DNA of 64,000 nt from the NCBI RefSeq assembly GCF_036170895.1, contig NZ_CP108036.1:5759501-5823500 (forward strand), written 5' to 3'. The DNA is from Streptomyces erythrochromogenes. GTDB taxonomy: Bacteria > Actinomycetota > Actinomycetes > Streptomycetales > Streptomycetaceae. The notes beneath the pieces were generated by a model. That model was not told where the DNA came from, ran no database searches, and was given only the letters and a program-made list of their open reading frames with translations. A program made the translations under genes and the position numbers. How positions within the stretch are numbered: position 1 is the first letter of the stretch; each line of letters starts with the position of its first letter. Positions 52,224 to 54,600 of the stretch are shown piece after piece.

Positions 52224-53221
52224 CCTCCCCCCTCCGGCTGACGGACATCGCCGCGCAGGCCCAGGTCAGCGAGGCGACGGTCAGCCGTGTGCTCAACGGC
52301 AAGGCGGGCGTCGCGGCCGGTACCCGGCACAAGGTGCTGGCCGCGATGGACCTGCTCGGCTACGAGCGGCCCGTGCGGCTCAAGCGCCGCAGCAACGGCC
52401 TCGTCGGCCTGCTGATCCCGGAGCTCACCAACCCGATCTTCCCGGCGTTCGCGCAGGTCATCGAGCAGGCCCTGGCCGGGCACGGGTACACGCCGGTGCT
52501 GTGCACGCAGACGCCCGGCGGGGCCACCGAGGACGAGCTGGTCGAGCAGCTGGAGGAGCGGGGGGTCACCGGCATAGTCTTCCTGTCCGGGCTGCACGCC
52601 GATTCCCACGCCGATCCGGCCCGCTACCAGCGCCTCGCCTCCCGCGGGCTGCCGTTCGTGATGATCAACGGCTTCAACGAGCACGTGAACGCCCCCTTCA
52701 TCTCCCCGGACGACCGCGCGGCCGCCGAGATGGCCGTACGGCACCTGCAGGACCTCGGGCACGAACGCATCGGGCTGGCCATCGGGCCGACCCGGTACGT
52801 GCCCTCGGCCCGCAAGGAGCAGGGCTTCCGGTCCGTCGTGCCGGACGCGGAGGTCGAGGGGCGGATCCAGCGCACCCTCTTCACGGTCGAGGGCGGCCAC
52901 GCCGCGGGCGGCGCCCTCCTCGACCGCGGCTGCACGGGCATCGTGTGCGGCAGCGACCCGATGGCGCTCGGGGTGATACGGGCCGTGCGTGAACGGGGTC
53001 TGCGGGTACCGCAGGACGTGTCGGTCGTCGGCTTCGACGACTCGCCGCTGATCGCGTTCACGGACCCGCCGCTCACGACCGTCCGCCAGCCGGTACGGGC
53101 GATGGCGACGGCGGCGGTGGGCGCCCTCCTGGAGGCGGTGTCCGGAACCCCGGTCCAGCGCACGGAGTACGTCTTCCAGCCGGAACTGGTGGTGCGAGGG
53201 TCGACGGGGCAGGTGCCTTAG
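52220..53221 (+). CDS. Second LacI-family regulator (MalR paralogue)
   Basis: A 333-residue repressor starting at GTG 52220, overlapping the aglA stop. The HTH RLTDIAAQAQVSEATVSRVL differs from that of MalR mainly in three residues, and the sensor domain is parallel (GLVGLLIPELTNPIFPAFAQ, DVSVVGFDDSPLIAFTDPPL). With nearly the same recognition helix it probably binds the same or similar operators. Being last in the operon it would be induced with it, so it may provide feedback or respond to another sugar. The gene-free repeat element starts about 135 bases after the stop. Confidence 0.9.
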   Translation: MTSPLRLTDIAAQAQVSEATVSRVLNGKAGVAAGTRHKVLAAMDLLGYERPVRLKRRSNGLVGLLIPELTNPIFPAFAQVIEQALAGHGYTPVLCTQTPGGATEDELVEQLEERGVTGIVFLSGLHADSHADPARYQRLASRGLPFVMINGFNEHVNAPFISPDDRAAAEMAVRHLQDLGHERIGLAIGPTRYVPSARKEQGFRSVVPDAEVEGRIQRTLFTVEGGHAAGGALLDRGCTGIVCGSDPMALGVIRAVRERGLRVPQDVSVVGFDDSPLIAFTDPPLTTVRQPVRAMATAAVGALLEAVSGTPVQRTEYVFQPELVVRGSTGQVP

Positions 53222-53356
53222 GGGCGGGGCGGGGTTCCAGCCCCCTCGGCCCCCAAGGCGGGCCGGTGGTTGCCCACCCACCTCCAGGGCCGTGACCTCC
53301 CCGGCCGGGAGCGCGAGCCGACGAGCGCGGTGAGGCCGCGGGGCTTTCGGCGGACC

Positions 53357-53835
53357 GGGATCGCAAGCGTGCGGGGCGGTGCGGGTCGGCGGTGTTTCGG
53401 CGGGGCGGGATCAGGGATGTGCTGGGGGTTTCCCGTCAGTCCCATCGTCTCTCCGGTTCGTGCCGGTCCCTCAAGGGCGCTCCTTCGTCGCGTCGCTTCG
53501 CGATGGCCTGCGGCCACCCTTGACCGCCCGTCCCGCCCCGGACATACGAGGACAGCCGGGAAGCCCCCAAAGGAACGGGCCGGTCTCAGATTTCAGGAAC
53601 GGGGCGTCGGAGGGGCCCGGGCGGGAGCCCGGAGCGCCCCAAATCGCTACGCGCTCCTGTCGGATGGCGTCAGCCAGCCTCTTGGGCTGGGCATAGGCCG
53701 CCTCACATCGCTACGCGCTCCTCACGGCTCGGCGTCCGCAGGCCCCTGTGGCTGGACATAGGCCGCCATCGATCGCTACGCGCTTCTCCGAGACCGCGTC
53801 CGCCCCTCGTTCGGGGCTGGGAGGGGCGGTTTTGG
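53357..53835 (+). repeat. Left arm of a large inverted repeat with tandem units
   Basis: Matches the reverse complement of 54030-54472 in long blocks, for example TTTCCCGTCAGTCCCATCG (from 53429), AGGAACGGGCCGG (53571) and GGAGCCCGGAGCGCC. It carries three tandem units of 64-65 bp beginning ATCGCTACGCGCTCCT at 53643, 53707 and 53772 (the last with one change), each followed by a G/C-rich segment able to form a small hairpin such as CCAGCC-TCTTG-GGCTGG. No gene is supported here. Confidence 0.85.
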
Positions 53836-54029
53836 GGGGCGGGAGGGCGATCCATCGGCTGAGCCGATGCCAACCCCCATCAAGGGCGAGGTGGCATCAC
53901 AGCCGCCCGCCCAAACAGGGGCGATTGGGGCAATCGGACGGCTCTCCGAGGCCTCCATCCACCCACACCTGGATTGGCATCGCCTCGGCCGTCCTCTGAC
54001 GCTTTTCCTCCCCCCCAATCGCCCTCGGA
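53836..54029. other. Centre of the inverted-repeat element
   Basis: About 194 bases between the arms. It has its own palindrome CATCGGCT-G-AGCCGATG (53853-53869) and a wider pair GATGCCAA / TTGGCATC (53866 and 53973). No open frame with coding character and no transposase remnant are seen. Confidence 0.6.
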
Positions 54030-54472
54030 CGCCCTCCATGAGGAGCGAATCGGGCCTCTGCGGCTTATGGCCAGCCCCAGACGGTCTGCAGACGCGTGAT
54101 CGAGGAGCGCGTAGCGATCGATGGCGGCCTATGTCCAGCCCCTGACGGCTCGCGGACGCCTTCGGGCAGGAGCGCGTAGCGATTTGAGGCGCTCCGGGCT
54201 CCTGCCCGGGCCTCTCCGACGCCCTGATGGTCTCTTGTCGCCCGGCCCGTTCCTTTGGGGGGTTCCCGGCTGTCCTCGTATTTCCGGGGCGGGACGGGCG
54301 GTCAAGGGTGGAGCGCAGCGACATCGCGAAGCGACGCGACCGAAGGGAGCGCCCTTGAGGGACCGGCGCGAACCGGAGAGACGATGGGACTGACGGGAAA
54401 CCCCCAAGACAGCTCTGATGCCGCCCCGCACAGACCCCGCTCCCCCATACCGACCCGCACGCTTCCGATCCC
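54030..54472 (-). repeat. Right arm of the large inverted repeat
   Basis: Reverse-complement copy of the left arm with scattered mismatches and small indels. The unit core AGGAGCGCGTAGCGAT is found at 54168-54183 and 54103-54118, with a decayed third copy at 54041. The outer part ends with CGCACGCTTCCGATCCCGC, matching the left arm near 53357-53375. Confidence 0.85.
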
Positions 54473-54600
54473 GCCCCACCGCCCCACCGCCACCCCGCCC
54501 CACCGCCACCCCGTCCCGCCCCCACCCCACCCCCCGTGAACTCGCCCTGTGGGGGCCCGAGTCCATCGGTGGGGTGAGAGGACACGCCTCGGAAACAATT

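Follow-up and report, generated by a model that had tools for sequence, protein, structure and literature searches.

Mobile insertion cassettes (MICs, e.g. IS231) and MITEs carry passenger or non-coding DNA between inverted ends, encode no transposase and are presumed to be moved in trans. In pdif modules, single genes or toxin-antitoxin pairs lie between inverse ~28-bp XerC/XerD sites, likewise with no recombinase of their own. Integron attC sites recombine as folded single strands and are found in direct-orientation arrays of diverse gene cassettes beside an integrase, and REPIN/RAYT systems combine dispersed intergenic elements having two inverted palindromic ends with a Y1 transposase.

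The element described here is located in a 64,000-nt stretch of DNA from Streptomyces erythrochromogenes (GCF_036170895.1, NZ_CP108036.1:5,759,501-5,823,500; the whole stretch is referred to below as the window and the host genome as G000). It is a cargo-free, empty member of a Streptomyces repeat family. Like MICs and MITEs, the family consists of dispersed copies in which inverted ends surround a passenger gene or non-coding DNA, with no transposase (except in one locus, L330), but its ends are covarying foldbacks of ~160 nt rather than the short inverted repeats of known insertion sequences, and no parent insertion sequence with such ends was found in G000. It shares with pdif modules the placement of genes between inversely oriented sites and differs from them in the ~160-nt fold, the chromosomal location and the many copies per genome. 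The diverse cassettes and the folded-strand site, which in our case is inferred, recall attC, but the sites occur as inverted, dispersed pairs. REPINs also have inverted palindromic ends and are intergenic and dispersed; they differ in length, in lacking cargo and in their Y1 transposase, for which the host genome gave no match. A strand-specific single-stranded DNA structure is likewise a property of the sti/sso sites of rolling-circle plasmids and AICEs, and the cloverleaf that caps the foldback occurs near rep or int genes of some actinobacterial integrative elements; in contrast to sti/sso, the copies are chromosomal and form inverted pairs, and plasmids pIJ101 and pMR2 have no credible cloverleaf.

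For the ends, the closest published comparison that we have seen is with Streptomyces telomeres. The 3'-ending telomeric strand is described as a series of packed hairpins with GNA-type loops and G-A pairs (PMC4513846, PMC7205883), and the GCA loops of the 3' overhangs, closed by sheared G-A pairs, are likened to parvovirus ends (PMC4513846). GNA-type loops and G-A pairs on a 3'-ending strand are features of our modules, too. The modules are, unlike telomeres, internal, and their sequence differs from that of the G000 telomeres, so that the similarity is one of principle and not of membership.

Structure of the element

The original prediction described an inverted repeat with internal tandem units, no gene and no recognisable family. 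An inverted-repeat search of the window recovered the arms as four matching segments (53348-53483/54346-54481, 136 nt, 85%; 53514-53583/54242-54311, 70 nt, 97%; 53602-53679/54147-54224, 78 nt, 90%; 53750-53788/54102-54140, 39 nt, 97%) around a centre of ~195 bp. The repeat is real: the element has 65 blastn matches within G000, far beyond chance. Including the G-rich tail on the left and the C-rich tail on the right, it spans roughly 53350-54540 (Table 1). The tandem units lie where they had been placed, at 53643, 53707 and 53772, and two minus-strand units were confirmed at ~54106 and ~54171; the further copy at ~54041, which had been called decayed, gave no motif match with one mismatch, in keeping with that label. 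The number of these units differs among copies of the element. No ORF inside the element passed our coding-like filter (at least 100 aa with coding-like third-position GC), in agreement with the absence of a gene. The location "between two maltose-operon units" was too loosely worded: the neighbours are an ORF on the left, ending at 53221, which we take to be a LacI-type regulator, and on the other side an ORF that is presumably a secreted-amylase-like protein.

Table 1 Features of the window element and cloverleafs within Acidiphilium insertion sequences
Feature	Position	Strand	Basis and remarks
G-rich outer tail, left arm	53350-53422		GC skew +0.42; differs from copy to copy
Left outer module, ~160-nt foldback	53423-53580	folded strand (supposed): minus, 5'->3' from centre to outside	nhmmer, folding, alignment
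Cloverleaf head, left module	53469-53525	-	covariance model R1, E 1.2e-17; covariation; stem TCAAGGG/CCCTTGA enclosing three mini-hairpins whose minus-strand loops are of the GNA type
Three ~64-65-bp tandem units (ATCGCTACGCGCT ... CATAGGCCGCC), left arm	53643-53840	+	
Element centre	53856-53991		inverted repeat 53856-53876/53971-53991 (86%)
Right-arm tandem units, two good and one decayed	54041-54190	-	
Right outer module, mirror of left	54245-54406	folded strand (supposed): plus	nhmmer
Cloverleaf head, right module	54300-54360	+	covariance model R1, E 7.6e-14
C-rich outer tail, right arm	54407-54540		GC skew about -0.4 to -0.7
Cloverleafs in Acidiphilium ISL3-family insertion sequences	L207:3987-4037, L210:2987-3037, L211:2987-3037		~165 bp from one end of the insertion sequence

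Copies in the host genome

G000 comprises an 8.5-Mb chromosome and a 100-kb contig. A covariance model of the cloverleaf, with which 150 of 22,423 first-look candidates were scored, returned 34 matches at E<=0.01, and every one of them could be placed as an arm of such an element. The 34 arms form 16 inward-facing pairs (one each in L031-L036, two in L037 and one each in L039-L046) and two lone arms (L035 and L038). Element loci are confined to 2.95-6.74 Mb of the chromosome, a span so narrow that it arose in 1 of 200,000 uniform placings of 18 loci.

The order of parts recurs among the copies, with some parts missing in a few: an outer block, the cloverleaf stem-loop block, an inner block, two to four ~64-bp units and a central hairpin, followed by the mirror image. 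Landmarks of the centre were found in 13 of the 16 pairs and are absent from L032 and both L037 pairs. Across copies, the arms are mosaics of discrete alternative blocks, and the copies in L035 and L036, although separated by 165 kb, share 99% identity over 988 bp. The outer tails differ even between near-identical copies; one G-rich tail outside the module contains short tandem repeats (GGCGGAGTTTCGGCGGGG; L036:4480-4666).

The end module and its cloverleaf

The conserved portion of each arm is the outer module of ~160 nt, which is common to other Streptomyces. On the strand leading from centre to outside, the module folds back on itself (GGGGG.TTCCCG...CAGTC with GACTG...CGGGAA.CCCCC) and carries at its tip a cloverleaf, in which TCAAGGG and CCCTTGA enclose three small hairpins, in our reading with no unpaired bases between them. 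A covariance model with 57 positions provides an exact signature for searches. When 42 diverse cloverleafs were compared, 96.3% of the cells were paired and double changes occurred in 11 of 20 pairs, none of 500 shuffles reached any of five measures, and shifting the partners by one to three columns left only 31-53% of cells paired, with the reservation that the structure was drawn from the same sequences as were tested, which biases the test in its favour. The compensatory changes that covariance modelling had been proposed to reveal are present. Applied to 40 whole modules, RNAalifold drew 42 pairs, seven of them with double changes (e.g. CG:22/UA:14, UA:22/GC:8), and one of the three head hairpins, with a small covariation term of -0.7 kcal/mol.

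On the centre-outward strand, the middle hairpin has a C(GNA)G loop with a free middle base in 114 of 118 distinct cores, and the other two head hairpins are mostly of the GNA type, with exceptions. The 101 non-Watson-Crick cells comprise 85 A.G, seven G.T, five C.T, three A.C and one G.G, the A.G count taking in two columns where a tandem mismatch is standard. The mismatches are purine-purine on the centre-outward strand and pyrimidine-pyrimidine on the opposite one. When whole modules were folded as single-stranded DNA, z was -4.84 for the centre-outward strand versus -2.53 for the other, and the RNA folds were weak (z -1.34 and -2.26, respectively). The folding energy of the cloverleaf alone gives no preference for the named strand (z -2.80 versus -3.28 for the other strand on the left, -1.38 versus -1.67 on the right), and the strand assignment therefore relies on mismatches, loops and the fold of the module as a whole. 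That the fold signature lies on one strand, whose 3' end is directed outwards, suggests folded single-stranded DNA like that of Streptomyces telomeres. Of the suggested pair of inverted structured RNAs, the inverted structured pair is right, but folded DNA accounts for the mismatch pattern no less well than RNA does.

Orientation of the modules and their cargo

We assembled 175 loci with 264 modules (251 distinct) and counted as neighbours those less than 5 kb apart. Neighbouring modules face inwards in 87 of 89 cases; the two others, in L035 and L037, involve modules of different elements. Removal of three duplicate loci left 84 distinct inward pairs. Coding-like ORFs lie inside 30 of the 38 pairs that are more than 1 kb apart, versus 1 of the 46 closer pairs (L032 of G000), and were obtained in 3 of 190 block shuffles of the long interiors, a crude control. 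What lies between the modules is thus shown to be a short non-coding centre in some pairs and unrelated genes, from one to several, in others, with cargo reaching up to 3.5 kb between the arms. Three of the 16 G000 pairs (L032, L037 and L041) have coding-like cargo.

Among the 60 interior ORFs, 24 were scanned with Pfam and NCBIfam. Their families include GNAT, aminotransferase IV, GntR-UTRA, HAD, GDSL lipase, WYL regulator and ketosynthase, and further cargo comprises NmrA plus APH, an NsdA-like regulator and a 2OG-Fe(II) oxygenase (of two ORFs, one exceeded the cut-off); several of the 24 had no match in either database. L173 holds two small ORFs that we take, from their sequence, to be a ribbon-helix-helix/PIN pair. 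Some cargo recurs: a ~72-aa protein (YVPHxLLRRRVRDIASG...LAYIR.ASGREFTTAV) is encoded by eight ORFs (L032:4827-5198, L150, L179, L187, L198/L340, L331 and L332; seven once the L198/L340 duplicate is removed) and had no Pfam match in the two ORFs scanned, GntR regulators account for four (three without a duplicate), and there are two ORF pairs. A putative transposase (NF041680) is part of the cargo of a single pair, L330, and none of the other interior ORFs is related to it. The lack of any recurrent transposase or recombinase in the set of 60 counts, in our view, against the cassette reading set out below.

Two interpretations of the contents were rejected. The pairs are not integron cassettes, as the modules face inwards and no integrase is present among the 24 of 60 interior ORFs scanned. 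A role as carriers of defence genes was discarded after PADLOC, run on 10 cargo proteins, yielded just two marginal matches (E 0.004 and 0.006).

Distribution beyond the host genome

At E<=1e-10, with two candidates per genome scored, modules were found in at least 52 of 392 Streptomyces genomes (G000 included), and a deeper search of 13 positive genomes at E<=1e-6 yielded between 9 and 40 matches per genome. Scanning named genomes for the pattern returned at least 120 stretches, those listed all being assigned to Streptomyces; carriers include S. lavendulae, S. virginiae, S. toxytricini, S. katrae, S. flavotricini, S. goshikiensis and S. avidinii. Elements are undercounted in draft assemblies: in the G058 draft, contigs break off inside these elements or at most about 0.7 kb away (L256, L259, L261, L263, L265 and L267). 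The original prediction had named as its counter-case a single copy with no homologues and no covariation; that case fails on every count, as copies, homologues and covariation were all found.

The cloverleaf was also found in 73 of 296 genomes of the class, representing 25 of 114 genera including Streptomyces (E<=1e-4, 19 candidates per genome). Near cloverleafs (86 ORFs at 27 loci, two of them from Streptomyces), we counted integrase N-terminal domains (6), integrase domains (5), RepSA (2), FtsK (2) and GntR (3); a second, partly overlapping set of 86 ORFs at 20 loci gave 4, 3, 1, 2 and 3 for the same families. Genes of integrative elements are thus near some but not the majority of the cloverleafs examined outside Streptomyces, and the AICE context is not diagnostic. 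Individual cloverleafs of other actinobacterial genera lie beside integrase, excisionase-like, RepSA or FtsK genes, an AICE-like context, in differing orientation (L301, L303, L305, L280 and L327).

Plasmid-borne cloverleafs were detected in Nocardia, Mycobacterium, Microvirga, Sinorhizobium and Acidiphilium, several of these sequences being also in the training set of the covariance model. On Acidiphilium plasmids, the cloverleaf lies inside an ISL3-family insertion sequence of ~1.6 kb, present in three copies (Table 1), and its stem is compensatory (TCAAGAA/TTCTTGA). In Microvirga (L212:878-3053), it is located directly 3' of a pair of tyrosine recombinase genes. An INPHARED search for a phage origin gave no match. 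In IMG/VR, 12 of the 39 contigs matched by a loose pattern were rescored with R1, as was L418, the one contig matched by a strict pattern; of those rescored, only L418 scored (E 2.1e-14).

Comparison of the same sites in relatives

An orthologous site of S. lavendulae CCM 3239 (L173) and Streptomyces sp. NBC_00249 (L179) holds different cargo in the two strains. The flanks, beginning some 35-200 bp outside the modules, are 95% and 85% identical and the modules ~85-95% identical; inside the modules, identity drops within 200 bp to about 56-79%, and the longest match between the interiors is 230 bp at 69%. Conversely, similar cargo occurs at unrelated sites: the GntR genes of L173 and L340 are 83.5% identical over 788 bp with no similarity between the flanks, and the cargo of L151 and L187 is 78.7% identical over 502 bp with no flank match.

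In G058, a close relative (flanks mostly 91-96% identical; it has identical loci in common with S. virginiae NRRL ISP-5094), 9 of the 12 element loci fetched share their gene neighbourhood with a G000 element, some of them as lone arms, and movement is therefore not frequent at the G000-G058 time scale. In G215 (flanks about 88-92%), 3 of the 8 fetched loci share such a neighbourhood. For a fourth, L273, the only link is a cargo gene (L273:3752-4858) that is 85.5% identical over 1.1 kb to the gene adjoining the lone G000 arm L038 (3576-4676), which suggests that L038 is half of a former cargo-carrying pair.

Despite two orthologous sites, no G000 copy is among the five best matches of any of seven G215 copies, nor is a G215 copy among the five best of any of 15 G000 copies, and for the one complete G058 copy compared, the same-site G000 copy (L033) is not among the five best. 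By this comparison, copies within a genome are more alike than copies occupying the same site in a relative.

At the junction between the regulator and amylase genes, whose comparison among related strains had been proposed, the result depends on the relative. Full pairs are present in G000 and G090; G058 has a right arm near a contig start, G062 a right arm only and G099 a left arm only, and G087, G006 and G004 have none. In five more genomes fetched, the regulator does not adjoin the amylase gene. Since the left arm and flank of G090 are common to G099 and its right arm and flank to G062, the lone arms there are decayed pairs. For the L039 site, 20 genomes were searched, with 11 regions fetched. 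An empty element is present in G000, a left module with adjoining ORFs in G285, a fragment of a module in G243, and in G055 several ORFs flanked by a left module and a 47-nt piece of a right module; G058, G215 and G070 have other DNA with no module and G150, G378, G189 and G087 a short spacer. No clean empty site was encountered, the one contiguous "empty" site (G243) retaining a right-module fragment. The comparison with G215 L275 gave no clean junction either, a further gene being different on the left. No target duplication was seen, the exact element ends being masked by the variable G-rich tails.

Candidate partner enzymes and known families

The Y1 HUH transposase (PF01797) had no match in G000 at E<=1e-5 and was matched equally often among 14 element-bearing genomes and among 14 others (2 each). 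The ISL3 transposase (PF01610) had none in G000 or G058 at E<=1e-10 and was matched in 9 of 14 carriers and 7 of 14 others. Lacking a match in the host genome, both are unlikely as required partners, and the REPIN/RAYT, IS200/IS605 and ISL3 partner readings were rejected. No autonomous insertion sequence sharing these ends was found in G000, where the R1 matches are only the 34 arms. A known structured RNA was also discarded: with Rfam 15, nothing exceeded the gathering score, two sub-threshold matches being to microRNA and lncRNA families, which, for RNA families, bears out the statement that no named family fits. Identity with the pIJ101 sso (sti) was rejected, the best of 34 weak matches reaching 11.3 bits (E 0.14); pMR2 had no cloverleaf match, and a Nonomuraea RepSA region reached only 15.8 bits (E 0.046). 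The elements are not telomeres, as all 34 G000 arms are internal and the palindromes of the G000 telomeres differ and have no cloverleaf match. The ends of the G000 chromosome (L419 and L420) carry inverted repeats of palindromes with CTGACG centres, unlike typical telomeres with GCA loops.

Discussion

We consider the window element to be an empty member of a non-autonomous, cassette-carrying Streptomyces family recognised by its folded ends, a reading to which we assign a probability of about one half. We prefer it because the ends are structured and face inwards, the contents are interchangeable and no enzyme is encoded. Besides the lack of a recurrent enzyme, we count against it the lack of a target duplication and of a clean empty site, the neighbourhoods that most of the fetched G058 loci share with G000, the small RNAalifold covariation term, the standard tandem mismatches within the A.G count and the cloverleaf energies, which do not favour the named strand. 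In this scheme, a trans-acting protein, or else host recombination, would recognise the modules in the form of folded single-stranded DNA, and the DNA between two modules would thereby be exchanged or moved; lone arms and fragments would represent decay products, and the tandem units and centre of the window copy may be filler that evolves by gene conversion. Among the three guesses made initially, the non-autonomous mobile element is the one best supported, by the 16 pairs, the occurrence in other species, the cargo and the site with different cargo. The idea that long perfect blocks signal recent origin or conservation is only partly right, since the sequences of a genome can be homogenised even where the sites are old and common to several species. 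The comparisons show that the copies are dispersed and homogenised within a genome and that an orthologous site can hold different cargo.

Ordinary homologous recombination between arms accounts for the homogenisation, and the cargo swaps may be due to it as well. Taken further, plain RecA-type recombination between old dispersed arms, with no dedicated enzyme, would make the cassette appearance a by-product. The concerted evolution seen in the G215 and G000 best matches and in L035/L036, the mosaic arms and the flanks that lone arms have in common with full pairs elsewhere all agree with this view, which we nevertheless hold to be rather unlikely as a full account, as it leaves unexplained why a covarying, strand-specific fold is kept across species, why modules face inwards and why a low-copy cloverleaf occurs in other genera. 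Still less probable is a function in replication and repair or in nucleoid organisation, in which the folded strand would be a priming or protein-loading site and the inverted doubling would serve either strand. The folded single-stranded DNA signature, the RepSA, int and FtsK contexts of the cloverleaf in some other actinobacteria and the confinement of G000 copies to part of the chromosome are in its favour, but an element matched in the fraction of Streptomyces genomes given above, itself a lower bound, is hardly essential, module presence differs between relatives at the same site, cargo would be unexpected, and pIJ101, whose sso is known, lacks the cloverleaf.

Paired structured RNAs or bidirectional terminators, transcribed from the centre outwards, are improbable: covariation, the frequent convergent or tandem arrangement of neighbouring genes (judged by a rough ORF heuristic) and a C-rich outward strand beyond the module that could suit Rho speak for them, and the missing Rfam family, the weak RNA folds and the kilobases of cargo between arms speak against them. 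We know of no linear form of these elements, and descent from telomere- or parvovirus-like linear DNA, that is, from integrated hairpin-ended minireplicons, seems very improbable. Folded strands that end outwards on both sides share their principle with the Streptomyces telomere 3' overhangs (PMC4513846), but the G000 telomeres are built from other palindromes, and no replication gene was named inside the elements scanned.

Returning to non-autonomous cassettes with folded ends, a more specific and decidedly tentative proposal, doubtful in our own estimate, is a new dispersed cassette system in which inverted, telomere- or parvovirus-like foldback ends are read as folded single-stranded DNA and individual accessory genes are swapped among some 16 docking sites on each chromosome. 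Recognition might then take place during replication or conjugation, or through an enzyme borne by an AICE. The open-access literature searched contained no description of such a system. The cassette reading predicts a protein that binds the outward strand when it is single-stranded. If it is true, accessory genes of Streptomyces would be traded via cassettes whose ends act as DNA structure, not as sequence; even under plain recombination, the family would provide a natural example both of concerted evolution and of the exchange of cargo at fixed sites.
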